The translations under genes and the position numbers were made by a program. The notes beneath the pieces are model-generated. The model saw only the letters and a program-made list of their open reading frames with translations. It searched no databases and was not told where the DNA came from. Source: a virus. Taken from it: DNA of 64,000 nt. Position 1 is the stretch's first letter. Every line of letters begins with the position of its first letter. The stretch covers positions 124,001 through 188,000 of the IMG/VR virus record IMGVR_UViG_3300028569_002417. One strand, given 5' to 3'. Positions 2,351 to 28,908 of the stretch are shown in pieces.

Positions 2351-3051
2351 AAATACATATTTCTTATACTTATGGCTGTCCTGATGAAACAATTCTTCGT
2401 GAATTGATGAGCTATGACATTCAATGCCCAGAATGCACAATTTTAGAGCCACATGAAAATGCTCCACTAAACTTTGAGGTTCCAACTAGCTTTACAAGTT
2501 TGCACTGGAGCAGACAATACGAATATCCTTGGGCAATTATGCATAGTAATTTGAAGCCAAGCGATGTTTGTCTTGATGCTGGTGGAGCATATGCTGTTTT
2601 CAAGTATGCAGTTGCCAAAAGATGCGCCAAAGTAGTCACGATTGATATGAATCAAGACTATCTTGACAAATCTATAAGGTCAGCAAAAAGACTTGGTTTC
2701 AAAAACATTGAGTTTTATAATTCTAAAATTCAAGATTATAGAAGTGAAGAAAAATTTGATAAAGTCTATTGTATATCTGTTCTAGAACACATACAGAGTA
2801 GTAGTGAAAGAATTGAATGTATTGAAAACATGATAGGAATGCTAAAGAAGGATGGAGAGCTTTATTTAACTTTCGATTTTATCATAGAAGAAGGTGAAAA
2901 TCAGTTTGATTTTTACATGGGAAAAAATGAAGCAGCAGAAATATTAAATTATTTTGGCGTATCTGAATTTAATGATGAAAAATATTATTCTGCGAGTTTC
3001 CCCGGTGGTTGCGTTCTTGCAACAATATGTTTGAAAGTGTGGGAAATATGA
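2347..3051 (+). CDS. Class I SAM-dependent methyltransferase
   Basis: The gene starts with GTG, overlapping the upstream stop as GTGA. The 234-residue protein has motif I 'VCLDAGGAYAVF' (a DxGxG-like SAM loop), an acidic residue after the second strand (VVTIDMN), and 'CISVLEHIQ', a motif common in small-molecule and sugar methyltransferases. The N-terminal 60 residues precede the SAM fold and may bind substrate. Cassette position suggests a sugar or glycan acceptor; this is inference. Confidence 0.75.
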   Translation: MKIHISYTYGCPDETILRELMSYDIQCPECTILEPHENAPLNFEVPTSFTSLHWSRQYEYPWAIMHSNLKPSDVCLDAGGAYAVFKYAVAKRCAKVVTIDMNQDYLDKSIRSAKRLGFKNIEFYNSKIQDYRSEEKFDKVYCISVLEHIQSSSERIECIENMIGMLKKDGELYLTFDFIIEEGENQFDFYMGKNEAAEILNYFGVSEFNDEKYYSASFPGGCVLATICLKVWEI

Positions 3052-3707
3052 GGATACCTGACCATATTATTCAAGAATATAAAACCTTTGATCCAGAATC
3101 AAGATTATTTTTTGCTGATTTTGATGAGCCACAAGGTTCAAAAATACTTGAAGTTGGATCTCAACATAGTCCTATAGCCAGCATGATGGCTAAGTGTGGA
3201 TTTCATGTTACAGGTGTTGATTTAAGAGATTCTGATCAAGAATTAAACTATAATCACATTACTGCTGATTTCTGCCGATTACCATCTTACTTCCTTCGTG
3301 AAAACATAGGAACTTTTGATGCTGCTGTTATTGTCTCTGCCATTGAACATTTTGGTTTGAATACTTATGGAGAAGGCAAGATACATGAATATTATGATGT
3401 TATTGCCATGCGATATATTTATGATTTATTGAAACCGGGAGGAACATGTTATTTGACAACACCTTTCGGTGGTAAATTTGTTGTACACAAGCCTCATTGG
3501 CGTGTTTATGATTGGGCTAATCTACTTGAACGAATTGTTCAAGACTTTAGAACAGAAGTGTTTAATCTTGGTGTTTGTGAAGAAATAACAATCAACGGTA
3601 AGGTTTTTCCTGTTGGAAGCCCAATATCAATGAACGAGGCTATACTGAATACAATTGGATTACCTCATGTTTCTTGCTATGTAAGATTAAGAAAACCATT
3701 GGATTAA
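3048..3707 (+). CDS. Class I SAM-dependent methyltransferase
   Basis: The likely start is the ATG at 3048, which overlaps the upstream TGA as ATGA; an in-frame ATG 39 nt earlier lies inside the previous gene. The 219-residue protein shows 'ILEVGSQHSP' (SAM-binding motif I), 'VTGVDLRD' (motif II acidic end) and 'VSAIEHFG' (the usual xxEHxx after strand 4), then 'LLKPGGTCYLTTPFG'. This is a complete Methyltransf_11/25-type fold, coupled to its neighbours. Confidence 0.8.
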   Translation: MRIPDHIIQEYKTFDPESRLFFADFDEPQGSKILEVGSQHSPIASMMAKCGFHVTGVDLRDSDQELNYNHITADFCRLPSYFLRENIGTFDAAVIVSAIEHFGLNTYGEGKIHEYYDVIAMRYIYDLLKPGGTCYLTTPFGGKFVVHKPHWRVYDWANLLERIVQDFRTEVFNLGVCEEITINGKVFPVGSPISMNEAILNTIGLPHVSCYVRLRKPLD

Positions 3708-3710
3708 ATC

Positions 3711-4718
3711 ATGTTTTTATTTGTAACAAATGATAAAATCGGTTCAGAAACAGGAGGCGGTCAAGTAACCGCACATGAATTTGAAGCGTTAAATCAACTT
3801 GGTCCTGTTGATGTCATCAATCCCGCACCAACCAATAATCCTTTTGATTCAGAAAAGTCTATTCAAGAAATTGATTTCAGTAAGTATAAGCTTGCACACT
3901 TCTATGCTGGCACATTCCCAGAACTAACCACCAAATTAAAAGCAAATGGCGTAAAAATAACTTACACTGTTGCTGCTCATGATGTTGACATCAGCAGAGA
4001 AGAATTTTTAGGATTAGGTGCTTCCTTTGATTTTCCACACTTAAATGATCCAAATTTATTTCAAAAATATATAAGCTGCTACAAGAATGCTGATGTTGTA
4101 ATATGTCCATCAATGGTTGCAGAAAAAACCAATAATAAATATGGAATAAACAATACAAAAATAATTCCACATGGTCATGTTCCCGTCAGGAACAAGAAGA
4201 TTCCAAATAAGTTTGCAGTTGGGTATCTTGGTCAGTGTGGACCTGATAAAGGATTGAGATATTTGTTAGAAGCTTGGTCTATTCTAAATTACAAAGATGC
4301 CATATTGAATCTTGCAGGAATTCAAACTCCCAGATTGTTGCCTTTAATTAGACATTTTGGAAAAGGCAATATCAATATTCAAGGCTGGGTTAAATCGACA
4401 GAAGATTTTTACAATAGTTGTTCTGTTTATGTTCAGCCAAGCGCAACAGAAGGATTTGGCATTGAAGTTCTTGAGGCTATGAGTTCTGGCAGACCTGTTG
4501 TTGTTTCTGATGGTGCTGGAGCATCCGATTGCATTGAAGGTTGCGGTTTTGTATTTGAGAAAAAGAATGCTAAGCAGCTTGCACAAATGATCGACACATT
4601 GAAAAACAATCAAAATCTTTGTGAAGAGTTTGGCAAAAATGCGGAAACAAAAGCGAAAAATTACACTTGGGACAAGGTCAAAGAACAATACATCCAATTG
4701 TGGCGGGGCATGATATGA
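3711..4718 (+). CDS. Glycosyltransferase family 4 (GT-B)
   Basis: A 335-residue GT-B enzyme. It has an N-terminal Gly-rich loop (ETGGGQVTAHEF) and the C-terminal GT4 signature 'SATEGFGIEVLEAMSSGRPVV', then 'DGAGASDCIEG'. It starts four bases after the previous stop and overlaps the next gene by ATGA. It differs clearly from the GT4 protein at 1292, so the two probably add different residues. Confidence 0.85.
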   Translation: MFLFVTNDKIGSETGGGQVTAHEFEALNQLGPVDVINPAPTNNPFDSEKSIQEIDFSKYKLAHFYAGTFPELTTKLKANGVKITYTVAAHDVDISREEFLGLGASFDFPHLNDPNLFQKYISCYKNADVVICPSMVAEKTNNKYGINNTKIIPHGHVPVRNKKIPNKFAVGYLGQCGPDKGLRYLLEAWSILNYKDAILNLAGIQTPRLLPLIRHFGKGNINIQGWVKSTEDFYNSCSVYVQPSATEGFGIEVLEAMSSGRPVVVSDGAGASDCIEGCGFVFEKKNAKQLAQMIDTLKNNQNLCEEFGKNAETKAKNYTWDKVKEQYIQLWRGMI

Positions 4719-6289
4719 GTTATTCATTTCCATTTAGTCAAAATGATAAAGTAATTGAATTGGGAGGAGGAGATAGACCATATTTCCGCCCAAATCTCGA
4801 TGTTCGTTCAGGAACAAGCATTGACATAGTTGCTGATTTTAATGAACCATTGCCAATACCAGAAAATGAATACAATGGTGTATTCAGTCAATTTTGCATT
4901 GAACATCTTTCTTGGCGTAAAGTAAAACTATTCATCAGTGAAGTTTATCGTATTCTCAAGAACAATGGTAAAGTTGTTTTTATTACAGCTAATACCGAAA
5001 AGCAAATGCAATATGTTCTTGATCACGATGAGTGGAACGACAACTGTTCTTGTATTATTTTCGGTGACCAAGATTATCCAGAAAACACTCATCGCAATAG
5101 CTTCAGTCCAAAATATGCAATTAAGTTAATGACTGATGCTGGATTCACCAATGTTATTGTATTGCCTTTTGGGGAATTACAAACAGATATGATTATTGAA
5201 GCAACCAAAAAAACCAATAAAATTGATTTTGATAGAGAGTATTTTGATAATCCTCATTTTTATGGTGAGAATACTGGATTCTATCGTGATCATCCAAGCA
5301 ATTGGATTGTTTTCAATAACATCATGAAGAAGAATCCAACTTCTGTTTTGGAAATTGGTTGTGGTAGAGGATATTTGCTTAAAAGACTTGAAGTAAATGG
5401 TGTTCCATCCAGAGGATTAGAAATATCCAAGCATTGTTTTCTAACAAGAGTGAGTGATTCTGTTGCTGAATTTGATGTGAGGCAAACACCTTGGCTATTT
5501 GAAGACAATCAATTTGATTTGTGTGTGTCACATGGTTTTTTTGATTTTATTGAAGCTGAATATATTCCTGTTATTCTTAAAGAAATAAATCGTGTTTGTT
5601 CAAGAGGAATGCATGGAGTAAACACAAATAGTCTAAATCTTTCTTGGAGCAATCAGGAATTTATCGACAACAAGCATTTAACAGAAGGATCTCTTGCTCT
5701 GAATATACCTGCTGGAGATGGTAGGCTTAAACTCAATATTGGTAGCTTCACGGTGATGTTACATAATGGCTGGATCAACACAGACATTGTAAATCTGAAT
5801 GATTATGCTGCTCAAAATCAATACAAATTCCTTCAGATGGATTGTAGGCATCCGCTTCCATTTGAAAAAAGTACTGTTGATTTAATTGTTTCCAGTCACA
5901 TGTTAGAGCATCTTGATTGGAATGAAGGATTGAATTTTCTTAAAGAGTGTAATCGCATTATGAAACCAAATGCGACCATAAGGATCGCTGTTCCAGATGC
6001 AGAAAAATTAGTTAGTTATTATAAGGATAACAATCTTGAATTTTTAGATCAGATGAATGTTACTGCTGCTCAAAATAAAGCGCAATCATTCAAGTTATGG
6101 TCATTCTTATTTGATGGTCACAAGATTGCATATGATTTTAGTAGTTTAGAGCAGATTGGAATGGAAGCTGGATTCCGTGTTGAGAGAAGGAATTTTAATG
6201 AAGGTAATTTACAGATAATCAGGGAGACGATGGATTATCTCCCTGAAATTAGCATATATGTTGAAATGACTAAGAATTCCAATGTCTGA
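4715..6289 (+). CDS. Protein with three tandem methyltransferase-like domains
   Basis: The start is the ATG at 4715 (ATGA overlap with the glycosyltransferase). The 524-residue protein carries three SAM-fold units. About residues 1-140: 'VIELGGGDRPYFRP' and 'FCIEHLSWRK'. About 205-330: a canonical motif I 'VLEIGCGRGYLLKR' with 'GLEIS'. About 340-520: 'LKLNIGSF' followed by 'VDLIVSSHMLEHLDW'. Units 1 and 3 resemble 'predicted SAM-dependent methyltransferase' domains with modified SAM loops; the middle one looks fully competent. Fused units often act in sequential O-methylation of glycans, but the substrate is unknown. Confidence 0.75.
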   Translation: MSYSFPFSQNDKVIELGGGDRPYFRPNLDVRSGTSIDIVADFNEPLPIPENEYNGVFSQFCIEHLSWRKVKLFISEVYRILKNNGKVVFITANTEKQMQYVLDHDEWNDNCSCIIFGDQDYPENTHRNSFSPKYAIKLMTDAGFTNVIVLPFGELQTDMIIEATKKTNKIDFDREYFDNPHFYGENTGFYRDHPSNWIVFNNIMKKNPTSVLEIGCGRGYLLKRLEVNGVPSRGLEISKHCFLTRVSDSVAEFDVRQTPWLFEDNQFDLCVSHGFFDFIEAEYIPVILKEINRVCSRGMHGVNTNSLNLSWSNQEFIDNKHLTEGSLALNIPAGDGRLKLNIGSFTVMLHNGWINTDIVNLNDYAAQNQYKFLQMDCRHPLPFEKSTVDLIVSSHMLEHLDWNEGLNFLKECNRIMKPNATIRIAVPDAEKLVSYYKDNNLEFLDQMNVTAAQNKAQSFKLWSFLFDGHKIAYDFSSLEQIGMEAGFRVERRNFNEGNLQIIRETMDYLPEISIYVEMTKNSNV

Positions 6290-14347: not shown

Positions 14348-17300
14348 TTAGCCTTCTCTCCATCTACTCCAGAATGTATTATTCCTAACCATTTCTTCGT
14401 AGGTATGGGTTGCAAATCTCTTATGTGCAGCGCCAGCCCTTATTCCAGAAAGTCTTACTACGACTTCAATTTCATTGTCGATAATCTTATCACTTTCCAC
14501 ATCAATGATAATAAGATTGTCTCTCACATAAGCTCCGACACTAACTGGCATAGATGGAACAACACTTACAGGTTTTATTGTGTTAAAGGCACAAACTTGT
14601 AACAACCGATCATCAATAAATTTTGAAACATTTTCTGTTTTATGTCCTAATCCACCAACCTTGAATATGACGATATCCTCAAATCTAACTTCTGGCATTT
14701 CTACACAGATAAGTTCAACATATTCAGTTCCTTGTGAAGTAACAACAGGAAGAATCGCATACTTATCACCTTGTGGACCTTGAGGGCCTTGAGATCCTTG
14801 TAATCCATCTGCCCCAGCAGAACCTTGGAATCCTGCTCCTTGAGATCCTTGAGCTCCAGTTGGACCTGTAGGTCCAGTAGCGCCATTTGATCCTGCGGGT
14901 CCCGTAAATCCTATATCCCCTTGATATCCTTTTGTTCCACTTGGAACAAAAATTATGCTCAAAGATTCTTCGTTAAAAGGTGTTATTCCAGAAAGAGGTT
15001 GGACAACAATTTCATAAAAAACTCCATGATCTATTAAATAACCATTAACCGCCATTGTACAAATAGTTGATCCTGCGTTGTTGCCATTGATATAAATCAA
15101 ACCTGTAAAATTAGATCCATCATATAGATCATCAAAATAACTAATCCATAAACTTTGGTCAATACTATTAGCGTCAAATGCAGAAATATAAATTCTAGTA
15201 ACAGAACCTATCGAAAAATCGTTAAAACGAATTTTTCCACTACCGGGAGGAGTAGTTGGCGCATTAGTTACATCAGGATTAAATATATACTTTACACCAC
15301 CTTTATCTCCAATTCCTTGATTTCCTTGTAACCCTTGAAATCCGTCTGCTGGTCCTTGAAGACCTTGATTTCCTTGATTTCCTTGATATCCAAATCCTTG
15401 CAATCCTTGAAAACCTTGAAGACCTTGAAGACCTTGAAGACCTTGAAGACCTTGAAATCCTTGAAATCCTTGATGTCCTTGATTTCCTTGATTTCCTTGG
15501 TAACCTTGATTTCCTTGTTCTCCTTGAAATCCATCTGCTGGTCCTTGAAGTCCTTGATTTCCTTGATTTCCTTGGTAACCTAGACCTTGATAACCTTGAT
15601 TTCCTTGATAACCTTGATAACCTTGATAGCCTTGATTTCCTTGGAATCCGTCTGCTGGCCCTTGGAACCCTTGTCTTCCTTGATTACCTTGGAATCCTTG
15701 GAATCCTTGGAACCCTTGATTGCCTTGATTACCTTGATTTCCTTGGAATCCTGCACCTTGATTTCCTTGATTTCCTTGATTTCCTTGCTCTCCAACATCT
15801 CCTTGATAGCCTTGTTCTCCTATTCCTTGCCATCCTTGATGACCCTGTTCTCCCTGATGACCTTGTGGTCCTAATTCTCCTTGACTTCCTTGAACTCCTG
15901 TAGGTCCAGTATTGCCAGTATCTCCTTGGACTCCCTTAAATCCTTGTTCTCCTACACGTCCTTGACTTCCTTGATGTCCTTGTTCTCCTTGAGGCCCAAT
16001 CTCTCCTTGACGGCCTTGATGGCCTTGATAACCTTGATATCCACGATCTCCTTGATAACCTGCTCCTTGTCTTCCTTGATATCCTTGTTGACCTTGATAT
16101 CCTTGAAATCCTCTTGTTCCTTGAATTGGTCCTACGTTTTCCCATTGCGATCCGTCCCATATAATTCCATCTCCAACTTGTGCTGGGCTGGTATCTGCCC
16201 TAATTGGGGCAGGTACTGGACCAGATCCACAATCAGCATTTGCAGTATCAATCAAAATATACATGTCGCCAAAGCTTGGCGCTAAAATAACACAATTAAT
16301 ATATTGCCATGATTCAGAACCTCTTATTGCTATAGAAGGTCCAATTTCACCTTGATTTCCTTGATTTCCTTGATAACCAATATCTCCTTGATTTCCTTGA
16401 TAACCTTGTTCTCCTTGATATCCAGAACCTTGATATCCTTGATAACCTTGGTTTCCCTGATTTCCTTGATATCCTTGTTCTCCCTGATATCCCTGATCTC
16501 CTTTAGATCCTACTACTCCTTGATGTCCTTGTCTTCCTTGAAGTCCTATTGGCCCTGTATCTCCTAATTCACCTTGTGGTCCTTGTAAACCCGTTCTTCC
16601 TGTTGGTCCTTGTAGACCATCTCTCCCTTGTTGTCCAACACCTCTTTCTCCTTGACGACCCTGAGAACCCTGAGGTCCAGTATCGCCAATATCTCCTTGA
16701 CTTCCTTGACTTCCAATATCTCCTTGGCTTCCTTGGCTTCCAATATTTCCTTGATTTCCTTGATAACCAATATCCCCTTGATTTCCTTGGAATCCTTGAT
16801 TACCTTGTTCTCCCTGATTTCCTTGATTTCCTTGATAGCCAATATCTCCTTGATTTCCTTGGAATCCTTGATCTCCTTGATTCCCCTGATTACCTTGTTC
16901 TCCCTGATTTCCTTGATTTCCCTGATAACCATATCCTTGATATCCTTGATTACCTTGAGATCCTTGATCTCCTTGATCTCCTTGAGCGCCAATAACTCCT
17001 TGGGAACCTTGAGATCCTTGATTGCCTTGATAACCACGTTCTCCTTGATTTCCTTTTTCTCCTTGAGCACCAATTTCTCCTTGGCGACCTTGACGACCTT
17101 GATTTCCTTGTAATCCTATATCGCCCTTTTCTCCTTGAACTCCAATTTCTCCTTGGCGACCTTGACGGCCTTGATTTCCTTGATATCCTTCGCCTTTTTC
17201 TCCTTGTGATCCTTGCGCTCCTGTCAGTCCAAGATCACCTTGATTTCCTTGCAGGCCAATAATGCCTTGCAATCCTTGATATCCTGCTCCTTGTGTTCCT

Positions 17301-18094
17301 TGTGCTCCTGTTAGTCCAAGATCACCTTGATTTCCTTGATTACCTTGATTTCCTTGATATCCTGCTCCTTGTGTTCCTTGTGCTCCTGTCAGTCCAGCAT
17401 CACCTTGATTTCCTTGCAGGCCAATAATGCCTTGCAATCCTTGATATCCTGCTCCTTGTAGTCCTTGCAGTCCTTGTAATCCTTGTTCACCTTGAACTGT
17501 ACTTGGAGAACCTTGAGATCCTTGTGCCCCACGACCTCCTTGGCGACCTTGAAAACCTTGTAGTCCTTGTAATCCTTGAGTTCCATCAATTCCTTGATAA
17601 CCTATAACGCCTTGATATCCAGCACCTTGAAGACCTTGATATCCCTGAAGGCCAATAACGCCTTGATTTCCTATGATTCCTTGATATCCAGCACCTTGAA
17701 GACCTTGATATCCAGCACCTTGATTGCCTTGAAGTCCTTGATCTCCTTGATAGCCTGCTGGTGTTCCTTGATATCCTACAATTCCTTGTAAACCCTGATT
17801 GCCTTGAACTCCTACAATTCCTTGTAAACCTTGATTTCCTTGTGGACCCTGAACTGTACTTGGAGAACCTTGAGCTCCTTGCGAGCCTGCTCTTCCCTGC
17901 GGACCTTGAAGTCCTGTTGTTCCCGGAGTTCCTTGGCTACCTTGTGGACCTTGTTTTGATGCGTCAACTTGTGCGGAAACGACAAAGTCACGAATGTCTT
18001 GTGCGGTAATGCCACCTTCACTATTGTCGGCAAATATGCACAACAATTCTTCTTCTGTTCTTAGTGTTCCCGACTGGTTACATTGATTTGCCAT
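14348..18094 (-). CDS. Giant collagen-like fibre protein 1 (1248 aa)
   Basis: The head, residues 1-47 (MANQCNQSGTLRTEEELLC...), is nearly identical to that of the neighbouring fibre and probably anchors it to the virion. Hundreds of Gly-X-Y triplets follow, mostly with Gln in the third position (GNQ, GYQ, GLQ, GFQ). Two non-collagenous inserts interrupt them: one around 'ESWQYINCVILAPSFGDMY', one around 'GKIRFNDFSIGSVTRIYI'. The C-terminal ~110 residues (from 'KYAILPVVTS') form a globular tail similar to fibre 2. Proline is scarce and Lys triplets are few. The DNA is a mesh of short TTGATTTCC-like repeats, which explains the long spurious frames on both strands. Confidence 0.85.
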   Translation of the reverse strand: MANQCNQSGTLRTEEELLCIFADNSEGGITAQDIRDFVVSAQVDASKQGPQGSQGTPGTTGLQGPQGRAGSQGAQGSPSTVQGPQGNQGLQGIVGVQGNQGLQGIVGYQGTPAGYQGDQGLQGNQGAGYQGLQGAGYQGIIGNQGVIGLQGYQGLQGAGYQGVIGYQGIDGTQGLQGLQGFQGRQGGRGAQGSQGSPSTVQGEQGLQGLQGLQGAGYQGLQGIIGLQGNQGDAGLTGAQGTQGAGYQGNQGNQGNQGDLGLTGAQGTQGAGYQGLQGIIGLQGNQGDLGLTGAQGSQGEKGEGYQGNQGRQGRQGEIGVQGEKGDIGLQGNQGRQGRQGEIGAQGEKGNQGERGYQGNQGSQGSQGVIGAQGDQGDQGSQGNQGYQGYGYQGNQGNQGEQGNQGNQGDQGFQGNQGDIGYQGNQGNQGEQGNQGFQGNQGDIGYQGNQGNIGSQGSQGDIGSQGSQGDIGDTGPQGSQGRQGERGVGQQGRDGLQGPTGRTGLQGPQGELGDTGPIGLQGRQGHQGVVGSKGDQGYQGEQGYQGNQGNQGYQGYQGSGYQGEQGYQGNQGDIGYQGNQGNQGEIGPSIAIRGSESWQYINCVILAPSFGDMYILIDTANADCGSGPVPAPIRADTSPAQVGDGIIWDGSQWENVGPIQGTRGFQGYQGQQGYQGRQGAGYQGDRGYQGYQGHQGRQGEIGPQGEQGHQGSQGRVGEQGFKGVQGDTGNTGPTGVQGSQGELGPQGHQGEQGHQGWQGIGEQGYQGDVGEQGNQGNQGNQGAGFQGNQGNQGNQGFQGFQGFQGNQGRQGFQGPADGFQGNQGYQGYQGYQGNQGYQGLGYQGNQGNQGLQGPADGFQGEQGNQGYQGNQGNQGHQGFQGFQGLQGLQGLQGLQGFQGLQGFGYQGNQGNQGLQGPADGFQGLQGNQGIGDKGGVKYIFNPDVTNAPTTPPGSGKIRFNDFSIGSVTRIYISAFDANSIDQSLWISYFDDLYDGSNFTGLIYINGNNAGSTICTMAVNGYLIDHGVFYEIVVQPLSGITPFNEESLSIIFVPSGTKGYQGDIGFTGPAGSNGATGPTGPTGAQGSQGAGFQGSAGADGLQGSQGPQGPQGDKYAILPVVTSQGTEYVELICVEMPEVRFEDIVIFKVGGLGHKTENVSKFIDDRLLQVCAFNTIKPVSVVPSMPVSVGAYVRDNLIIIDVESDKIIDNEIEVVVRLSGIRAGAAHKRFATHTYEEMVRNNTFWSRWREG

Positions 18095-18118
18095 TTTTTA
18101 TTCTCGCTCTTTATTAAG

Positions 18119-20509
18119 TCAGCTTTTTTTCCAACTATCCCAGAATGTATTGTTCTTTATCATGTTTTCATATGTGTGTTGTGCGAACCTTCTACCAGCA
18201 TTGCCTATTCTAATGCCAGAAAGTCGAATATTTACAGAAACAAATTCATCAATTAAACAATCATCTTTTGCCCTTACATATATTTTATTATTTGAAACTT
18301 CAGCGCCGATCAATATTGGTCTGGAAGGCATTGCGCTAACAACTTGTATTGAATCATATTCACAAACCTTGATAAAATTTTCATCTATGTTGAAAACAGA
18401 AAGTACATTATTTTTACCTTCTCTACCAATATTAACAACAATTAAATCTTCAAATCTTACTTCTGGCATTTCCATACATGCCAATTCAATATATTTTTCA
18501 GAAGATCCATCATAAACAGGCAAAATAGCATTTTTAGAACCCGGCTGACCAGTTTCCCCTCTTTCGCCCTGATCTCCTTTTCGACCTTGTTGCCCTTGTT
18601 GGCCTGTAGAACCTTGATTCCCTCTATCACCTTTATCGCCTTTTACTCCTTGACGACCTTGTTCACCTTTTGGTCCTTGCAGTCCTTGATTTCCTTGACT
18701 TCCTTGATTTCCTTGTTCGCCTTGTTGACCTTGCTCACCTTGATCGCCTTGTTCGCCTTTTTCTCCTTGATGTCCTTGGTTTCCTTGATTTCCTTGATGT
18801 CCTTGATGTCCTTGATGTCCTTGGCGACCTTGATGTCCTTGATGTCCTTGGCGACCTTGGTGTCCTTGATGTCCTTGATGTCCTTGGTGTCCTTGGCGAC
18901 CTTGGTGGCCTTGATTGCCTTGGTGGCCTTGATTGCCTTGGTGGCCTTGATTGCCTTGGTGTCCTTGATTGCCTTGGTGTCCTTGATTTCCTTGATTTCC
19001 TTGATTGCCTTGATTTCCTTGATGGCCTTGATTTCCTTGGTGTCCCTGATTGCCTTGGTGTCCTTGATTTCCTTGATTTCCTTGGTGTCCTTGAAAACCT
19101 TGAAAACCTTGAAATCCTTGATTTCCTTGAAAACCTTGAAATCCTTGGTTTCCTTGAAAACCTTGAAATCCTTGGTTTCCTTGAAAACCTTGAAATCCTT
19201 GTCTACCTTGAAAACCTTGTCTTCCTTGAAATCCTTGATATCCTTGAAATCCTCTTTCTCCTTGAAAACCTTGTCTTCCTTGATATCCTTGATATCCTTG
19301 ATGACCTTGAAATCCTCTTTCTCCTTGAAAACCTTGTCTTCCTTGAAATCCTTGATTACCTTGATTGCCTCTTTCTCCTTGATATCCTTGCCTTCCTTGA
19401 AATCCTTGGCGACCTTGAGATCCTTGATTGCCTTGATAACCACGTTCTCCTTGATTTCCTTTTTCTCCTTGAGCACCAATTTCTCCTTGACGGCCTTGAC
19501 GACCTTGATTTCCTTGTAATCCTATATCGCCCTTTTCTCCTTGAACTCCAATTTCTCCTTGGCGACCTTGACGGCCTTGATTTCCTTGTAGTCCTTGATC
19601 GCCTTTTTCTCCTTGTGGACCAGTAGTTCCTATTACTCCTTGTCGTCCTTGATTGCCTTGATTTCCTTGAAAACCCTGACTACCTTTTTCACCTTGATAT
19701 CCTGATCCTTGATTTCCTTGATTTCCTTGATTTCCTTGATTTCCTTGAAAACCTTGACGGCCTTGATTGCCTTGAAATCCTGATCCCTGATTACCTTGAA
19801 ATCCTATTGATCCTTGACGACCTTGAGATCCTTGTGTTCCAAAAGCGCCTTGAAGTCCTTGAAAACCCGCTCCTTGAGAACCCGAAGATCCTTGTCGTCC
19901 TTGTTGACCTTGAACTCCAGTTGTTCCTTGCTGTCCTTGAACTCCTTTTCCTCCCTGTAATCCTTGTAGTCCTTGAACTCCTTGTAATCCTTGAGAACCA
20001 TCAAGACCTTGCAAACCTTGATATCCAGCACCTTGTAAACCTTGTAAGCCTAGATTTCCCTGAAGTCCTTGATATCCAGCACCTTGTAATCCCTGTAAAC
20101 CTTGTAGGCCAAAGCCTTGTTCGCCTTGTTCACCTTGTTCTCCCTGATCTCCTTGCGATCCTTGATAACCTGCTGGAGTCCCTTGATAACCAATAATTCC
20201 TTGATTACCTTGAACTCCAATAATTCCTTGTAAGCCTTGATTGCCTTGTGGACCTTGAACAGTACTTGCTGATCCTTGAGAACCTTGAGCTCCTTGTGAA
20301 CCTGCTCTTCCCTGTGGACCTTGAAGTCCTGTTCCCCCAGATGAACCTTGGCTACCTTGTGGACCTTGTTTTGATGCATCAACTTGTGCTGAAACAACTA
20401 AATCACGAATATCTTGTGCGGTAATACCACCTTCGCTATTGTCGGCAAATATGCACAACAATTCCTCTTCTGTCCTTAGTGTTCCCGACTGGTTACATTG
20501 ATTCGCCAT
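18119..20509 (-). CDS. Collagen-like fibre protein 2 (796 aa)
   Basis: The start is set at the ATG at 20509, because the shared MANQCNQSGTLRTEEEL head begins there and AAGG lies 7 nt upstream; an in-frame ATG 30 nt earlier would sit outside the conserved region. Residues ~55-690 are almost uninterrupted Gly-X-Gln triplets (GNQ, GHQ, GFQ, GRQ), ending in a Lys-containing block (GEKGEQGDQG). The last ~105 residues are a globular domain similar to fibre 1 (LACMEMPEVRFEDLIVVN). It lacks the two inserts of fibre 1. Likely a trimeric, Gln-stabilised collagen-type tail fibre. Confidence 0.85.
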   Translation of the reverse strand: MANQCNQSGTLRTEEELLCIFADNSEGGITAQDIRDLVVSAQVDASKQGPQGSQGSSGGTGLQGPQGRAGSQGAQGSQGSASTVQGPQGNQGLQGIIGVQGNQGIIGYQGTPAGYQGSQGDQGEQGEQGEQGFGLQGLQGLQGAGYQGLQGNLGLQGLQGAGYQGLQGLDGSQGLQGVQGLQGLQGGKGVQGQQGTTGVQGQQGRQGSSGSQGAGFQGLQGAFGTQGSQGRQGSIGFQGNQGSGFQGNQGRQGFQGNQGNQGNQGNQGSGYQGEKGSQGFQGNQGNQGRQGVIGTTGPQGEKGDQGLQGNQGRQGRQGEIGVQGEKGDIGLQGNQGRQGRQGEIGAQGEKGNQGERGYQGNQGSQGRQGFQGRQGYQGERGNQGNQGFQGRQGFQGERGFQGHQGYQGYQGRQGFQGERGFQGYQGFQGRQGFQGRQGFQGFQGNQGFQGFQGNQGFQGFQGNQGFQGFQGFQGHQGNQGNQGHQGNQGHQGNQGHQGNQGNQGNQGNQGHQGNQGHQGNQGHQGNQGHQGNQGHQGRQGHQGHQGHQGHQGRQGHQGHQGRQGHQGHQGHQGNQGNQGHQGEKGEQGDQGEQGQQGEQGNQGSQGNQGLQGPKGEQGRQGVKGDKGDRGNQGSTGQQGQQGRKGDQGERGETGQPGSKNAILPVYDGSSEKYIELACMEMPEVRFEDLIVVNIGREGKNNVLSVFNIDENFIKVCEYDSIQVVSAMPSRPILIGAEVSNNKIYVRAKDDCLIDEFVSVNIRLSGIRIGNAGRRFAQHTYENMIKNNTFWDSWKKS

Positions 20510-20519
20510 TTTAGCCTTG

Positions 20520-20861
20520 TTATTTGAAACTACTTGCAAATGATACGTTGAACTGTTTGTTTGTTCCGCCTATAGAATCTTGCTTTGCATTTTGACATTT
20601 TCGATAAGCCTTTAGATAAGGAATTGGATATGAAACAAATGCTCCATCACTTCTATTGGCTACGCAAATCTCAATATTTTTATAAGGAGGACACGAAAAA
20701 TAAGACTCTGGCTTGAGACAACAATCAACCAAGCCTGCTGGAATTTGACAAAAATTAGTATTTATGTTTGCCATATTGTTTACTTGAGTTAAATCCTGAC
20801 CTTTTTCAATTTGTTTAAGAGCAACATCTGGTACTAAAGCACCTTTCAAATAAGTATCCAC
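20520..20861 (-). CDS. Cys-containing small protein upstream of the fibres (113 aa)
   Basis: A strong AAGGAGG lies 5 nt before GTG at 20861, which decides the start against an ATG ten codons earlier that overlaps the RBS. The protein begins (V/M)DTYLKGALVPDVALK and has a Cys-rich centre with FCQIPAGLVDCCLKPESYFSC and a later 'NIEICVANRSDGAF' (each under 21 residues). No family recognised. Co-directional with the collagen-like fibres, so a virion or assembly role is likely. Confidence 0.65.
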   Translation of the reverse strand: MDTYLKGALVPDVALKQIEKGQDLTQVNNMANINTNFCQIPAGLVDCCLKPESYFSCPPYKNIEICVANRSDGAFVSYPIPYLKAYRKCQNAKQDSIGGTNKQFNVSFASSFK

Positions 20862-22107: not shown

Positions 22108-23040
22108 ATGCGTCATTTCCTGTCTATTTCCGACTTCACTAAAGATCAAATTGAAACTGTTTTAGAAATTGCGACAGACATTGAAAAGAATTGGGAATTT
22201 TGTCGCCAAATGAACAACAAATGTATTTCTTCGTTTTTTGCAGAACCTTCTACTAGAACCAGATTTTCATTCGAGAGAGCAATGCATTGGCTTGGAGGAA
22301 GATGTGTCACAGCTGCTGATGCATCTTCAAGTAGCAGTTTAATCAAAGGCGAAAGTCTCAAGGACACATTTCGCACTCTTGGTCAGTATTCTGACGCTAT
22401 CATTATGCGTCATGGTGATTCAAGCTGGCCAGAAATAGCAAGAGCATATTCTCGTGTTCCAGTAATTAATGCAGGAAGTGGATCTGGAGAACATCCAACA
22501 CAAGCACTTCTTGACCTTCATACAATTAAACAAAAATGGAAAGATGTCAGTAATCTCAAGGTTATGTTGTGTGGAGATCTTAAAAACGGAAGAACAATAC
22601 ACAGTCTTATTGAACTTCTTCACATTTATGGTTGCAAAATATATTATTGCGCTGCCACTGATCATGCAGATTGTGATTTGAGCATACCTGAAAAATACCT
22701 TGCAAATATTCCTTGTAAAAATGTTGAAATATGTGACGCAAATGACATTCTTCCAGAAATCGATGTCATTTATATGACCAGAATCCAAAAAGAAAGATTC
22801 AAAGGTGTCAGTGGTTCTCTAGATTTCTTTAAGATTGACAAAACCAATATCAATAAAATCAAAGAAAACGCTGCTATTCTTCATCCTCTTCCTAGAAACG
22901 AAGAAATTAGTGAAGATATAGATGATGATTCTCGTGCTGACTATCACGAAAGACAAGTCAGAAATGGTCTTTATATAAGAACTGCTCTTTTAGATTATAT
23001 TCTTTACACAAGTCCTTTACACAGATACTACAGATCATAA
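22108..23040 (+). CDS. pyrB: Aspartate carbamoyltransferase
   Basis: A 310-residue protein, the usual length of the PyrB catalytic chain. All active-site landmarks are visible: carbamoyl-phosphate loop STRTR (48-52), Lys80 in 'LIKGES' (from the 80s loop), Arg101 in 'MRH', 'GEHPTQALLDL' with His129, 'KNGRT' with Arg162, 'MTRIQKERF', and 'HPLPRNEEI' near the C-terminus. It makes N-carbamoyl-aspartate, the committed step of pyrimidine synthesis. No PyrI partner is visible, so it may escape CTP feedback. It has its own promoter. Confidence 0.92.
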   Translation: MRHFLSISDFTKDQIETVLEIATDIEKNWEFCRQMNNKCISSFFAEPSTRTRFSFERAMHWLGGRCVTAADASSSSSLIKGESLKDTFRTLGQYSDAIIMRHGDSSWPEIARAYSRVPVINAGSGSGEHPTQALLDLHTIKQKWKDVSNLKVMLCGDLKNGRTIHSLIELLHIYGCKIYYCAATDHADCDLSIPEKYLANIPCKNVEICDANDILPEIDVIYMTRIQKERFKGVSGSLDFFKIDKTNINKIKENAAILHPLPRNEEISEDIDDDSRADYHERQVRNGLYIRTALLDYILYTSPLHRYYRS

Positions 23041-23045
23041 TCATA

Positions 23046-23063
23046 AAAACAATTAATTGTTTT
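23046..23063. terminator. AT-rich palindrome between convergent genes
   Basis: AAAACAATTAATTGTTTT is a perfect 18-bp palindrome between pyrB and the minus-strand gene, overlapping the stop of the latter. The flanking A and T runs could serve as a weak bidirectional terminator. Confidence 0.4.
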
Positions 23064-23772
23064 CTAAAGGGAATAACTGACGGAATTTTTGCTCAACATC
23101 TTTGTTGATGCATGGCAAATAAACTTTGATGTCGAAATTAATTTTTTTATAATCATCTTCAGTGAAGATTGATTTCATGAATGGTGAAATAGCAATGTAA
23201 TATGGAGATATTTTAGCAAGGTTTATCCAACGGAAAATATTATTGTTGATATAACATTCTCGATATTTTTCAATTGTCAGTTCGGAACCGAATGTTTTAA
23301 CTAAAAATTCTTTTGTCTTTTCAATTCCATCAATTGCTTTTTGGAATCCGATTCCACTTGCAACAGATTCTGCTGGTTTATTTTTGACTGAATCGTATCT
23401 TTTCTTCCAAAGCTTCCATCTTTTCCAAGCTTTTTCACCAACTAGACAATTTGGGTCAATAAGAGGATGATCTTTGCCAGAATTGATATATTTGAGAACT
23501 TCTAACTGAGCACGGATATAAAGTGGATATTCATTATTCTCAAGAATTCCCTGAGTTTCTCTTGCAAGCTTATATGCTATTTTGAATATAAGAGACTTTC
23601 TAGGGTCACCCTTTCTCATTGTTGAGTGACGATAATCAGGAAATGTTTTTCTGCTTTGTTCAAGCCACATTGCAGAAAGATTGCAAGCTTTTGCCTCAAG
23701 ATCGTCCATATTGTACTTTTCAACTGCATCTAAAAGCCACATGTAGTCATCCTCTTTTTTTTCAGACTTCAT
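23053..23772 (-). CDS. Hypothetical protein (239 aa)
   Basis: AAGGAG lies 5 nt before the ATG at 23772, which fixes the start nine codons inside the longest frame. The sequence (MKSEKKEDDYMWLLDAVEK) is helical with many Lys and Trp, including KAWKRWKLWKKRYDSVKNK, a strongly basic patch that could bind nucleic acid. No catalytic motif seen. It is divergent from the glycosyltransferase at 23812, with only about 40 nt between starts. Confidence 0.65.
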   Translation of the reverse strand: MKSEKKEDDYMWLLDAVEKYNMDDLEAKACNLSAMWLEQSRKTFPDYRHSTMRKGDPRKSLIFKIAYKLARETQGILENNEYPLYIRAQLEVLKYINSGKDHPLIDPNCLVGEKAWKRWKLWKKRYDSVKNKPAESVASGIGFQKAIDGIEKTKEFLVKTFGSELTIEKYRECYINNNIFRWINLAKISPYYIAISPFMKSIFTEDDYKKINFDIKVYLPCINKDVEQKFRQLFPLENN

Positions 23773-23811
23773 GATACTCCTTTGAATTTGTGAAAGCAAG
23801 GTATGTATTAA

Positions 23812-24699
23812 ATGAAAATAGCATTTTGCCCATTAGTTAGTCGTGATATGGACAAGGCAATTCGTGCCACAAATTCTTGTCGTAATCAATTTCCAACCGA
23901 ATCCATTGAAATAGAAACAGTTGCAATTATCAATTCTCAGAATCAAGAATTTGTTTCTCAGTTTTCAGAATGGTGTGAAAAAGAGAATGTCAAATATAAA
24001 ATTACTCAGTCAAATGGTACTCCGAGTAAGGGAAAAAATTCTGTATTAAATTTTTTACAAAACTCAAATTATGATGGTCTGAGTCTTACTGATGGAGACG
24101 ACCTATTTTACCCAACAGGTGCAATTCAAATTGAAAAACATATGAAACATCACCCCGGAACTGATGTTTTGATTGTTAAACCTGCCGATCATGTTTCAAA
24201 TGAAAAAACAAATACTTCTAAGGAAGTTGGAGAAAATAAATATGCAGTATGCTGGGGTATGAATGTTGTTAATCTTGGATATAAATATGGACCCGGAAAG
24301 CACGATATATTTACATCTGGACACAAAGCAGCAAGAAATTTAGGTGGACATGTCTTTTATAGCAAAAAATTAAGCAATATGATAAGATATGACGAAGAAC
24401 AGGTTTTAGGAGAAGATTTACTTCTTGAATTTAATCTTCTTAAACTTCATCAACAAAATAAAATATCATTTTGGTTAAGTTTTGCTAGTGATGTTCAGAT
24501 GTTAGACAGAACAAAGCAAGAAAGCATACAAAATCTTAAGAATGAAAGTTTAGGTAAAATTTGTTTTGAAAGATTGATTAAAAAAGTAAAAGAAATATTA
24601 CCTGAAGATAGAAGTTCATTTAATGAATTGCCAGTAGAGTTTCCCGAAATTATTTTTAATCATGATCGAAAAATTGAATGGTTGAAACAAGTCTTTTGA
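23812..24699 (+). CDS. Glycosyltransferase-like protein, GT-A fold
   Basis: A 295-residue protein. 'MKIAFCPLVSRDMDKAIRATNS', described as an opening beta strand plus helix, is followed by 'NGTPSKGKNSVLNFL' and 'GLSLTDGDDLFYPTGAI', where DGDD supplies a DXD-like site. 'GHVFYSKKL' and 'VLGEDLLLEFNLLKL' resemble GT2 acceptor-side motifs (ED). Its coding region ends just where the promoter of the structured RNA begins. Confidence 0.65.
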   Translation: MKIAFCPLVSRDMDKAIRATNSCRNQFPTESIEIETVAIINSQNQEFVSQFSEWCEKENVKYKITQSNGTPSKGKNSVLNFLQNSNYDGLSLTDGDDLFYPTGAIQIEKHMKHHPGTDVLIVKPADHVSNEKTNTSKEVGENKYAVCWGMNVVNLGYKYGPGKHDIFTSGHKAARNLGGHVFYSKKLSNMIRYDEEQVLGEDLLLEFNLLKLHQQNKISFWLSFASDVQMLDRTKQESIQNLKNESLGKICFERLIKKVKEILPEDRSSFNELPVEFPEIIFNHDRKIEWLKQVF

Positions 24700-24723
24700 C
24701 ATTCCCATAAAAGATGGTATAAT
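24696..24723 (+). promoter_or_regulatory. Consensus sigma70 promoter driving the structured RNA
   Basis: TTGACA (24696-24701) and TATAAT (24718-24723), both perfect, are separated by 16 nt. This is the best promoter match I see in the window. It directs transcription from about 24730 into a 560-nt gene-free stretch. Confidence 0.75.
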
Positions 24724-24729
24724 AGATAT

Positions 24730-25290
24730 GGCAGTCCCAAGCTTTGGCGTGAAAGGTCTCGTACTACCTTGAATGTTGAAGTTGCTAAACCTGTGAGGCT
24801 CTCACCAAGAGCGGGTCTTTGTAGTTGTTTCTACAACAAATGCTGTAACGGGCAGCATTGTTCTCACAAGCAACATAGGTCAAGCCAGATAGCATCGATG
24901 CTGACTTCTATGACTATAGTGTATCCCACTAGCAAACACTCATGTCATAGACTATCTGGTTTTAAGATTGTTGCAAAAGAAAGTACGCTACTCTTCATCA
25001 CCACTAATCTTTTTGCTGGAGTAAGTAAGATTAAAGAACAAAAACAAAGCTTAAACGCTAAATTTTTGCTCTACTAATCTTGTTTACTCAATAAGTCATT
25101 ATTCTTAATGATTTATACAGTAATAACCATTAGGGTCAGCATCCCGTTCTGGAATTTGATTGTAAATAAAAGTTTCTCAAAAATATTTTCATGTTGTTAA
25201 TGAAGAATTTGTTTAGTATGACATTTGTAAATCCGTTCATCAATGAATGAAGGGATAAGGCTAGAAGGCTCAAAATTGACTTAGGAGTGA
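24730..25290 (+). ncRNA. Large structured non-coding RNA (~560 nt)
   Basis: No convincing gene lies here, but complementary arms follow one another closely. Helices seen: CCAA/TTGG 24737-24747; AAGGT/ACCTT 24753-24770; outer GTTGC/GCAAC 24781-24785 with 24870-24874; TGTGAG/CTCACA 24792-24797 with 24863-24868, enclosing hairpins 24798-24812, 24819-24836 and 24839-24859 (a four-way junction); 24882-24892 with 24952-24962 (11 bp) enclosing 24907-24914 with 24944-24951 and 24917-24931; AAGATT/AATCTT 24964-24969 with 25006-25011; 25019-25033 with 25075-25089 (15 bp, two G-U), with CAAAAA/TTTTTG inside; 11-bp hairpin 25091-25116; 25231-25256. Size, phage setting and ornate layout recall GOLLD and ROOL RNAs, but I cannot assign a class. 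The 3' end is not defined by a terminator, so it may also act as leader for the polymerase mRNA. Confidence 0.72.
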
Positions 25291-25296
25291 TTATCT

Positions 25297-26631
25297 ATGA
25301 ACTTTGAGTCTCTGGCCAAGTTGCTTACAGAAATCGACCACAAGACCCTATTCTTGCGATTTAATCCTGAGGTTCTTGATTTCACAGACAAGGAATCGTC
25401 TTGTGAGCTTCAGTTCTTTATTCCTGATGGTCGAATCTTCAAGATTGAGTTGAAAGATGAGACTATGCCTTTGATTCTAAGCTTCTTGGGTATATCTTTG
25501 TTTGAAAAAGATTGCAAAATATTTACTTGGAATTGGAAGTGTTTTGCTTCTTATGTTTTTGCTAAGAAGAACAAGTTTTATGACATAAAGGCTTCTATTG
25601 TTGATATCAAGATAATTGAGTCATTTAGCGGTATAAAGAAGAATGCTCCTGAAAGTTATGTTGAGGCTTTCAATAGAATAAAGAATTTAGTTTCTTCTGG
25701 TTTGTGGAAGGAAAGTGAGAATATTTACAAGAACATTCATCTTCCTTTGATGACAACAGTTATACCAGCATTGGAGAAGATAGGTATTGTTGATTCTTCT
25801 TTGCATTCTAAGGTTCATGCTTATTACGAGATTGATGGGCAGGACAATGGTCGATTGAAGTGTTTCGGTGCCTTCAAGAATTCTTATGTTCCTCACACAA
25901 TGGGATCTGAACTGAAAGAAGTTTTGAGGCCTGTTGGTTACGATAATTTTTTTATGAGTTTTGACTTTAAGGGGATGGAAGTATTTGTTTTGGCGCATTT
26001 GAGTAAGGATCGAAATTTATTGAGACTTTGCGATCAGGAAGACATATATCTTTCCTTGTATAGGGTTTTAATTGGACAGGAGAAGGAAAAAAATGATAGG
26101 GAATTGGCAAAAAAATGTTTTTTGCCGGTTATATATGGACAGTCAGCCCGATCACTTTCTTTGAGATGTGGTTTGGCGGCTGATGTGGCCGAAAAAGTGG
26201 TGGAACGAATTAGTTCTTTGTTTCCTGCTGCTATTTCATTTGTTGCCGATTGCGAAAGCAAAGTTAAAAAAGATGGATATGCAAAGGATTTCTTCGGTAA
26301 GAGAAGAACAAACTTTGAGGTTGGGAAGGAATACCTTGCCAGAAATTTTGCAGTGCAGTCTCCTGCTGCGACGATATGCCTAGAGAAACTTATCAGTTTA
26401 TATTTTTGTTTGCAAAAACTCAATGAGTCATTGAAAGATAAAGCTGAAATTGCTTATACTGTTCATGACGGATATGTTGTTTATGCCACAAAGGAAAACT
26501 GGAAGCAAGTTTACAAAAAATGTATGGATGCTTTGACTAGTGAATCTGAGTTGTGTCCCGGCCTTAAGCTGAAAGTTTCATGCAAAGGAGGACGCAATCT
26601 AAATGATCTAAAGGTTATAAAAAACGGCTAG
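25297..26631 (+). CDS. Family A DNA polymerase with degenerate exonuclease region
   Basis: A 444-residue protein, far shorter than Pol I. Motif A is 'SFDFKGMEVFVLAHLSKD' (Asp of the metal site), motif B 'RELAKKCFLPVIYGQSARSL' (the O-helix Arg, Lys and Tyr-Gly), and motif C 'YTVHDGYVV' (HD kept, the usual Glu replaced by Gly). The N-terminal ~130 residues resemble a 3'-5' exonuclease fold but lack its acidic residues; no 5' nuclease is present. AGGAG precedes the ATG. T4 itself uses a family B polymerase. A sigma-like gene and the helicase follow. Confidence 0.85.
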   Translation: MNFESLAKLLTEIDHKTLFLRFNPEVLDFTDKESSCELQFFIPDGRIFKIELKDETMPLILSFLGISLFEKDCKIFTWNWKCFASYVFAKKNKFYDIKASIVDIKIIESFSGIKKNAPESYVEAFNRIKNLVSSGLWKESENIYKNIHLPLMTTVIPALEKIGIVDSSLHSKVHAYYEIDGQDNGRLKCFGAFKNSYVPHTMGSELKEVLRPVGYDNFFMSFDFKGMEVFVLAHLSKDRNLLRLCDQEDIYLSLYRVLIGQEKEKNDRELAKKCFLPVIYGQSARSLSLRCGLAADVAEKVVERISSLFPAAISFVADCESKVKKDGYAKDFFGKRRTNFEVGKEYLARNFAVQSPAATICLEKLISLYFCLQKLNESLKDKAEIAYTVHDGYVVYATKENWKQVYKKCMDALTSESELCPGLKLKVSCKGGRNLNDLKVIKNG

Positions 26632-26642
26632 AGGATTAAGAA

Positions 26643-27194
26643 ATGCTTGATATTGTACACAATTTCCCCATTACTGAAGCTGAATTTTTTGATTTGGATA
26701 AGAAGTTTTCAAAGCTTTGCTGGCATGCTGCTCATGAATTGAAGAAAAAGAATACAAACAATAATTTTCTTGATGATGCAGAAGACATCAAACAAGAATT
26801 ACAAATGAGTATGCTTCGTGCTGGAAGTTATTATAAGCGTCAGGTTTATATCGAGAAATGCTTTGAAATTGCCAAGAATTATGTGAGTGATCAATTCATC
26901 ATGAAGGTTCTTAAAGAGCTTGAGAATCTTTGGAGCAATAGAACCAGACATGGTGCAAATAGGCAGAAGTATGGTCATTTCCAAGAAAAGATACTTGACA
27001 GAATAATTAACAAGTTTGTGCCTAAAGAACATAGGCCTAAGAAGGATGCTCCTTTGAAGATTGACAGTAAGTTTACAACATATTGCAAGGCAATTGTGTG
27101 GAACGGTCAGAAGAGCATGGGCAAAAAGATTACCCGTGAAAAATCGATTCGTAGCGGTATGGTTTCACTAAGCGAGTTTGATTTCTTACATTGA
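26643..27194 (+). CDS. Putative sigma-like transcription factor (gp55-like?)
   Basis: A 183-residue basic protein. 'FLDDAEDIKQELQMSMLRA' is laid out like sigma region 2.1-2.2 ('D.eDl.QE...gl.rA'), and 'DSKFTTYCKAIVWNGQKSM' followed by a basic helix resembles the 2.3-2.4 segment ('F.tYa...i...i'). T4 gp55, the late sigma subunit, has a similar minimal region 2. This is pattern recognition only; another helical DNA-binding protein is possible. The gene lies 11 nt after the polymerase. Confidence 0.4.
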   Translation: MLDIVHNFPITEAEFFDLDKKFSKLCWHAAHELKKKNTNNNFLDDAEDIKQELQMSMLRAGSYYKRQVYIEKCFEIAKNYVSDQFIMKVLKELENLWSNRTRHGANRQKYGHFQEKILDRIINKFVPKEHRPKKDAPLKIDSKFTTYCKAIVWNGQKSMGKKITREKSIRSGMVSLSEFDFLH

Positions 27195-27378: not shown

Positions 27379-28908
27379 ATGCGTGAACTCACACCAGAAG
27401 AACAAGCCCAACTTGAGTCAATGACTGACCCAGAGGTGGTCAAATCAAAGTTTGCATGGGACGATACTTTTCAGCGCAGACTCTTAGCAATGCTTTTAAC
27501 TGATGATTACATGCTTATTCAGTCGATGGATAAAATAAAGCCAGAATATTTCAGCAATGAATCTCATATTCTTATTTGTCGAATTCTTTTGACTTATTTT
27601 ACCAAAGAAAAATTTAGACCTAAAGATTGGATCATATCTCAAGAACTTACCAATCTTCTAAAGGATCGTGATCGCACAATTCAGTTGCATTATCAGGCCG
27701 AACTCAAAAGCATATATGACTATTACGTTCCGGGAGTTGATTCCCGTGAATACTTGATCGACAAAGTAACATATTTCGCTAAAGTTCAAGCTGTAAAGCT
27801 TGCTTTCCATTCTAGTTTGGAAAAAATGCAAGAAGCTCCTGAGGATGAAAAGACATGGAGTTTTGTTTACGAAAAAATGCGTGAAGCAATGCTTATCGAC
27901 AGGAGCTACGAACCCGGTCTTGAATACTTCATGAACATTGATGAAATGTTTCGTCGTATGGACGATGTATTTGTCGGTAAAGACAGATTCACATCAGGTT
28001 TCCCAGCAATTGATAATGCTTTAACTGGTGGTGGATTATTTGCTGGTCAGATAGCAAGTTGGATTGGTTTGCCGGGAACTGGTAAATCATTAGCCTTAGT
28101 AAAGGCGGCTGTTGAAAATGTACTCTTGGGCCATAAGGTTCTTTATATCACGTTGGAAATGGATGAACTTGGCATTGTGCAGCGTTTTACAAGTCAGTTC
28201 GCAAAGAAGGACATCAATAATCTTCGTGACATGAAAGATGAAATCAAAGCAACTATCGAAGAATTCAAGAAGGACAAGGCAGATCCTAACCTTTTGCATG
28301 TCAAGCAGTTTCCCGGTGGTCAGATTGATGTTAACGGCATAAGAGCCTACATGGCTCAGTTGGAGCTAAGAGGATGGAAACCTAATGTTTTAATTGTTGA
28401 CTATGTTGGTGAAATGAAAGACGATCCATCAGTTAAAAAATATGAAAGTGCCTATCGTATTTTGCGTGATCTTCGTGGTTATGGAGTTGAAAAAGGTCAC
28501 TGCACTTTCACATGCGTTCAGCCAAATCAAACAGCCGCAAAGCTTGAAATTGGACAATTTATTGATGAGTCTAATATCGGCACAAGCTTTGATCAGTTCA
28601 AGCCTCTTGATGCTTTTTGGTCAATTAATCAGCAGGTTTTGGAGAAGGATGCTGAAGTTGGAAGGGTTTTTGTCATTAAGCATAGGAATGGTAGATCAAG
28701 GTTCGCATTCAAGATTGGCTTTGATTATAAGATTGGTACTCTTGATATGTTTGAAATATCGAAGGATACATATCGTGAAAGAATGAACTTGGTTCAAGAA
28801 AAGAAAGCTGAAGAAGTTACTATGGACAATGTAGGCGATGCTCCTTCGGGTAAGAGGCAGCGCAGTAAAAAGGGATTTGTTCCAGAAGAAGACACCTACG
28901 AGGCATAA
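27379..28908 (+). CDS. Replicative DNA helicase, DnaB/gp41-like
   Basis: A 509-residue protein with an N-terminal helical domain (about 1-170), then a RecA-type core: 'TSGFPAIDNALTGGGLFAGQ', Walker A 'GLPGTGKS' (230-237), 'VLYITLEMDE' and Walker B 'NVLIVDYVGEM', 'FTCVQPNQTA' and 'VIKHRNGRSRFAF'. This matches SF4 hexameric helicases (T4 gp41, DnaB), which unwind the lagging-strand template 5'-3'. It follows the small RNA terminator, so it probably has a separate transcript. Confidence 0.88.
   Translation: MRELTPEEQAQLESMTDPEVVKSKFAWDDTFQRRLLAMLLTDDYMLIQSMDKIKPEYFSNESHILICRILLTYFTKEKFRPKDWIISQELTNLLKDRDRTIQLHYQAELKSIYDYYVPGVDSREYLIDKVTYFAKVQAVKLAFHSSLEKMQEAPEDEKTWSFVYEKMREAMLIDRSYEPGLEYFMNIDEMFRRMDDVFVGKDRFTSGFPAIDNALTGGGLFAGQIASWIGLPGTGKSLALVKAAVENVLLGHKVLYITLEMDELGIVQRFTSQFAKKDINNLRDMKDEIKATIEEFKKDKADPNLLHVKQFPGGQIDVNGIRAYMAQLELRGWKPNVLIVDYVGEMKDDPSVKKYESAYRILRDLRGYGVEKGHCTFTCVQPNQTAAKLEIGQFIDESNIGTSFDQFKPLDAFWSINQQVLEKDAEVGRVFVIKHRNGRSRFAFKIGFDYKIGTLDMFEISKDTYRERMNLVQEKKAEEVTMDNVGDAPSGKRQRSKKGFVPEEDTYEA

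Follow-up and report, generated by a model that had tools for sequence, protein, structure and literature searches.

A structured noncoding RNA of roughly 450 nt, which the data support as a new class belonging to no known family, lies between a host-type promoter and a family-A DNA polymerase gene in the 64-kb stretch of phage DNA analyzed here (the window; the virus record it comes from measures 225,527 bp), and occurs in a wide group of large and huge phages. That the class is real is beyond reasonable doubt, and the statistical evidence supports the location of its site, hereafter the slot, at a bidirectional replication origin. In other lineages, protein genes replace the RNA at this site. 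We tentatively hypothesize that this new RNA, expressed from its own promoter, opens and/or primes the phage origin, a proposal that we would place just short of probable; with moderate confidence, an origin role is the best supported function of the RNA.

Promoter, gene neighborhood and distribution of the RNA

The RNA is preceded on the plus strand by a sigma70-type promoter (24696-24723), composed of a -35 box TTGACA (24696-24701), a spacer of 16 nt and a -10 box TATAAT (24718-24723). This perfect pair, already pointed out in an earlier note made from the window sequence, outscores 200 of 200 shuffles of its own region, and L001, L003 and L010 keep it at an unchanged distance. Early expression by the host polymerase, which the note supposed, would be in keeping with such a promoter. 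The equivalent promoters of L001, L003 and L056 also outscore all 200 shuffles, and those of L010, L061 and L066 nearly do so. The RNA itself (24730-25180, plus strand) was delimited on the basis of fold, covariation and conservation, its start being placed about 7 nt past the -10 box and its end where conservation is lost. The earlier note had proposed a structured RNA of about 560 nt extending to 25296; this description stands from 24730 to about 25180, but the remainder, 25180-25296, is poorly conserved. The same note found no credible gene in the region, and we agree: the coding potential of the sole long open reading frame (24769-25077, 102 aa, TTG start) was rejected since stops and 1-nt indels break it in every relative, and the check for a coding signature came out negative.

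The order of genes around the RNA is the same in nearly all lineages: a divergent gene of 230-290 aa, the RNA, the polymerase, a 183-aa protein and a DnaB-like helicase. In the window, these correspond to a divergently transcribed 248-aa gene left of the slot (23053-23799, minus strand), conserved in nearly all loci and without family match, followed on the plus strand by the 444-aa family-A DNA polymerase (25297-26631; PF00476, E = 4e-29), the strongly conserved 183-aa protein (26643-27194) and the replicative helicase (27379-28908). The 183-aa protein outranks the polymerase in conservation, with relatives on 154 viral stretches; it matched no Pfam family at cut-off, and a single member gave a non-significant hint of sigma-70 region 2. 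A phage aspartate/ornithine carbamoyltransferase gene (22108-23040, plus strand) is likewise found in several relatives, including the 595-kb phage LR756511.1.

Relatives were searched for with the 444-aa polymerase and the conserved 183-aa downstream protein, and the locus was recovered from many viral contigs of up to 436 kb, with polymerase identities from 95% down to about 35%. The identity of the RNA to that of the window is 93% in L001 and 74-78% in L003, L010 and L024, farther members being recognizable by motifs and structure only. The slot is noncoding in 34 of 41 polymerase lineages. A covariance model built from the core alignment described below backs 19 of these, with the RNA upstream of orthologous polymerases, at E up to 0.01; the remaining 15, whose noncoding slots are of similar size and in several cases have motifs in common, are candidate rather than proven homologues; their structure z-scores, where measured, lie mostly between -2.5 and -6, with -1.7 in L080 and -0.5 in L246. 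The model also detects sequences outside its build, namely L060 (E = 1e-5), L089 (1e-20), L185 (5e-21), L197 (1.5e-5) and L199 (0.006), each of which has the RNA in the usual position before the polymerase. When 84,980 prokaryotic genomes were scanned by pattern, 42 matches turned up, but the covariance model supported none of them, and named phages queried with the RNA at the DNA level returned chance matches only.

In every lineage found the RNA adjoins the polymerase operon, and in 33 of the 34 noncoding lineages the slot immediately precedes the polymerase gene and runs in its direction. Such an arrangement would suit a long leader acting in cis on the expression of the polymerase operon, by autoregulation or attenuation. 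Nevertheless, promoter-like sites are present between the RNA and the polymerase, for example in L024 and L060 (with modest p values), and in L080, a 436-kb record assigned to the class by motifs and not by the covariance model, an inserted sequence (4400-5989) that includes a TnpB-like fragment separates the two by about 1.6 kb, so that the RNA is not a polA leader in all members. Neither the replacement by primase genes nor the position at a strand switch, both described below, is expected of leaders, and we regard this explanation as improbable.

No match at gathering score was obtained with Rfam 15 in the window or in the loci of eight relatives, and at relaxed thresholds five slot regions gave chance matches only, none of them to GOLLD, ROOL, OLE or HEARO, the families that the earlier note had singled out for comparison. 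ARAGORN called neither tRNA nor tmRNA in the 64-kb window, which hence has no tRNA island, and no Rfam similarity to ColE1 RNA II or its antisense regulator RNA I was found in it. No description of the RNA was found in the literature searched, which consisted mainly of open-access papers. Membership in GOLLD or ROOL, one of two possibilities raised by the earlier note, is not supported, there being no Rfam match at either score and no tRNA island, and its second possibility, a large phage RNA of a new class that has a promoter of its own, is supported by the covariation, the many homologues and the absence from Rfam. Group I and group II introns, RNase P and tmRNA were rejected for want of a covariance-model match or an ARAGORN call. 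A known catalytic RNA or intron of these kinds that diverged past recognition would be of comparable size and pseudoknotted layout, but the searches at relaxed thresholds gave it no meaningful match and no split gene is found at the slot; it is largely excluded, and the least probable of the explanations weighed here.

Fold and covariation of the RNA

The minimum free energy of the RNA is -161.9 kcal/mol, against -125.5 +/- 7.0 in dinucleotide shuffles (z = -5.21; none of 100 shuffles as good). Homologous phages provided two alignments for the covariation check, and two-sided changes were found in both. A core alignment of 16 sequences and 25 pairs, its structure hand-drawn from the helices in common, has 91% of its cells paired and two-sided changes in 17 of the 25 pairs (67 cells), a result matched by none of 500 shuffles and lost when the partners are slid out of register. 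A full-length alignment of nine relatives and 79 pairs, which includes helices E, F and G, was also equaled by none of 500 shuffles.

The core contains a four-way junction (24793-24867, plus strand, as are all elements that follow), present in both alignments and described by the earlier note at 24792-24868, for which the core alignment provides the covariation just given. It is formed by helices A (24793-24797/24863-24867), B (24799-24802/24808-24811), C (24824-24827/24834-24837) and D (24839-24845/24853-24859). Upstream of it, a hairpin seen in the full-length alignment (24754-24757/24766-24769) carries in its loop one side of a long-range pairing. Downstream, helix E (24870-24875/24969-24974) shows two-sided change in four of six pairs with 77% of cells paired, and encloses helix F (24882-24892/24952-24962) and helix G (24908-24914/24944-24950), both from the full-length alignment; helix F is the 11-bp stem of the earlier note, and six of its 11 pairs have two-sided changes. 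Two other elements of that note received partial support. The 15-bp stem (25019-25033/25075-25089) forms all 15 pairs in L010 using a different sequence, but L056 and L062 keep only 5-8 aligned pairs, and the 11-bp hairpin (25091-25116) covaries but aligns poorly in distant members. A hairpin with a conserved UUAAAC loop (25048-25059) has 96% of cells paired and two-sided change in two of three pairs.

Added to these elements are three covarying long-range pairings, which are absent from the earlier description. Pseudoknot 1 joins 24789-24792 with 24877-24880 (ACCU/AGGU), is found in the core and the full-length alignments, and shows a CG to UA exchange in L035, L065, L066 and L068. Pairing 2 (24760-24765 with 24982-24987, CGUACU/AGUACG) and pairing 3 (24899-24905 with 25135-25141, UGCUGAC/GUCAGCA) were spotted by reading conserved segments and are also present in the nine-sequence full-length alignment. 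Because these segments were hand-picked, each was tested by comparing a sequence's own partner with the partners of other phages: 108 of 114 cells over 19 sequences are paired for pairing 2, versus a permuted mean of 87, and 107 of 126 for pairing 3, versus a permuted mean of 92 (p<5e-5 in both).

Covariation of these pairings is blind to whether a contact is made within one molecule or between two, and pairing 2, often a palindromic GUAC, could serve as an intermolecular kissing contact. It would do so in a large trans-acting RNA, be it a ribonucleoprotein scaffold, a ribozyme or an RNA-only multimer of the GOLLD/ROOL type, which lies near the origin through the clustering of early genes. OLE and GOLLD have intermolecular palindromic loops (PMC12286853), which counts for this alternative, as do the RNA's own promoter, its compact multi-pseudoknot design and the intervening sequence of L080, from which RNA and polymerase appear separable. 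On the other hand, pairing 2 of L024 is CGCAC/GUGCG and not palindromic, the RNA keeps to the polymerase operon throughout, and it sits at a strand switch where it is exchanged with primase-type genes. A trans-acting RNA near the origin is the main rival to the origin role, and we consider it unlikely.

The fold could also act as single-stranded DNA, as an origin hairpin or a packaging signal, and its location at an origin-like strand switch would agree with this. However, a strong promoter is directed into the element, wobble pairs recur at helix positions (pair 15/30 of the core alignment is G-U in 10 of 15), and complex pseudoknots are typical of functional RNAs, which leaves the DNA explanation very improbable.

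Strand composition and protein genes at the slot

The GC-skew minimum of the window is at 21 kb, but gene direction confounds uncorrected GC skew, and for this reason the origin was searched for by the T-A difference at fourfold sites, with separate means per gene strand and the best-fitting single step. With gene direction controlled for, the top strand becomes richer in T from left to right across the slot, and the step has the same direction at the slot in all six RNA-bearing genomes tested, being the sharpest or nearly so in three; gene-controlled G-C gave no consistent step across genomes. The best step coincides exactly with the slot in G003 (rank 1 of 110) and G017 (1 of 75), lies at a distance of 2 kb in G009, and is one gene off in G010 and G012, whose slot contains the type A protein described below. 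G001 shows a weak step, G018 one blurred by the end of the contig, and the type B genome G014 none. G000, the genome of the window, was analyzed from stretches and has its best step about 10 kb left of the slot. The G000 step adjoins two very large minus-strand genes (window 14348-20539), and a recent rearrangement is possible there. When all third positions are used, the best step is at most 4 kb from the slot in seven of nine genomes, and other settings agree; Fisher combined p values are 2e-4 for the nine genomes and 2e-3 for the six with the RNA. Leading strands are usually rich in T and G, and the sign of the step therefore indicates an origin rather than a terminus, and the RNA runs the same way as the rightward leading strand. 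Nearness to an origin is by itself no proof of a role, because replication genes often lie near origins.

In seven of the 41 polymerase lineages the slot directly before the polymerase is occupied by a protein gene. The type A protein (387-394 aa; LR756511.1, L219, L221 and L244) overlaps the polymerase gene by 4 nt and is encoded at 4784-5947 in L055, 3476-4660 in L219, 3499-4662 in L221 and 3483-4658 in L244; LR756511.1, a named record of 595 kb, thus shares the locus but lacks the RNA. Inspection by eye shows a winged-helix-like N-terminus in type A, together with motifs resembling those of family A (IDIxNSQPL, FFRExFFGK and HDSI), but no tool confirmed the polymerase motifs, for which a profile comparison with the polymerase gave a probability of 2.8%; database searches returned no match, and its predicted structure resembles winged-helix folds weakly, with nothing solid. 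Type B (427 aa; L201/L202, partial in L200 and L233) weakly resembles archaeo-eukaryotic-type (AEP) primases, by a match to PF22548 that is below cut-off (E = 9e-5), and its AlphaFold model has a pLDDT of 38, too low to use. The slot protein of L247 (249-1460) unites in one open reading frame a Prim-Pol domain (PF09250, E = 2.5e-23) and a DUF559-type nuclease-like domain, and that of L240, type C (2317-4578), is not a primase but an IscB-like HNH domain fused to an SF2 helicase.

In the polymerase tree type A forms one clade and type B another, with L247 and L240 apart, and several exchanges between RNA and protein are therefore likely. None of the RNA-bearing genomes searched yielded a type A or type B protein. 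Conversely, the protein-type genomes gave no convincing match to the RNA model, which is insensitive to distant groups. Some of the records compared are fragments. Matches of the model in G003 (18429-18502, 18 bits) and in G010, G013 and G014 (about 15 bits) were treated as chance.

A proposed role in starting replication

We infer that the RNA is transcribed by the host RNA polymerase from its own promoter, and we hypothesize that the transcript would fold into a compact multi-pseudoknot shape which opens the origin and/or leaves an extendable 3' end. The fold may hold or position the 3' part of the RNA on the template, where the phage family-A polymerase encoded next to it would extend the 3' end as the rightward leading strand, as happens with ColE1 RNA II. 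In a primer of that type, a Pol I-type enzyme extends a processed RNA 3' end within a persistent hybrid, and the polymerase gene next to the slot is circumstantial evidence for such extension here. The swap with primase-type proteins would fit an action of the RNA at the origin. A fuller version of this proposal, in which the structured RNA is both initiator and leading-strand primer and has repeatedly changed places with primase-type proteins at the locus during evolution, is possible, though we are inclined to doubt it somewhat more. A separate Toprim primase is present in the RNA-slot genomes G003 and G004, and also in the type A phage LR756511.1; the RNA can therefore not replace all priming, the idea that it stands in for a sole primase was rejected, and the slot would serve initiation or the start of the leading strand.

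ColE1 RNA II, a noncoding transcript of about 550 nt whose host promoter precedes the origin and which the family-A DNA polymerase I extends (PMC5043065), resembles the phage RNA in size and in its host-type promoter, and the phage RNA lies at an origin-like switch next to a gene for a family-A polymerase. As for the host promoter a few hundred nucleotides before an origin that characterizes ColE1-type systems, the promoter is present in the phage, and in most genomes tested the strand switch coincides with the slot or is close to it, but in G000 it is about 10 kb off. In contrast to RNA II, to which it has no sequence or Rfam similarity, the phage RNA has three covarying long-range pairings and belongs to very large genomes with a bidirectional strand signal and a polymerase of their own. 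The origin R-loop transcripts of phage T4, which come from host promoters and prime phage leading-strand synthesis, are likewise comparable as host-promoter transcripts that act as leading-strand primers; they are not known, however, to form pseudoknotted folds of deep conservation.

Among large structured RNAs, OLE is bacterial and has different gene neighbors; the phage RNA shares with it the character of a large conserved structured RNA and, unlike OLE, has no Rfam match. GOLLD and ROOL are also phage-borne, several hundred nucleotides long and folded into ornate, multi-branched and pseudoknotted shapes; homo-oligomeric RNA cages are a feature of these two families. They are often found near tRNA islands (PMC12286853), whereas the RNA described here matches no Rfam family, is not accompanied by a tRNA island, has a fixed place at the polymerase operon and is exchanged with primase-type genes. 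The strand switch and this exchange suggest a role unlike that implied by GOLLD and ROOL.

Very few classes of large structured RNA are known in bacteria and phages, and those of phages have no assigned function. In the present class a strong functional clue is provided by the fixed place at an origin-like strand switch together with the exchange with primase-type genes, which makes the way in which huge phages start their replication directly testable. The quality of the covarying model suffices for designing tests of the fold and for finding more members. If the proposed role is true, RNA and protein would have been exchanged at a replication origin, and the RNA would be a phage counterpart of the RNA primers of plasmids.
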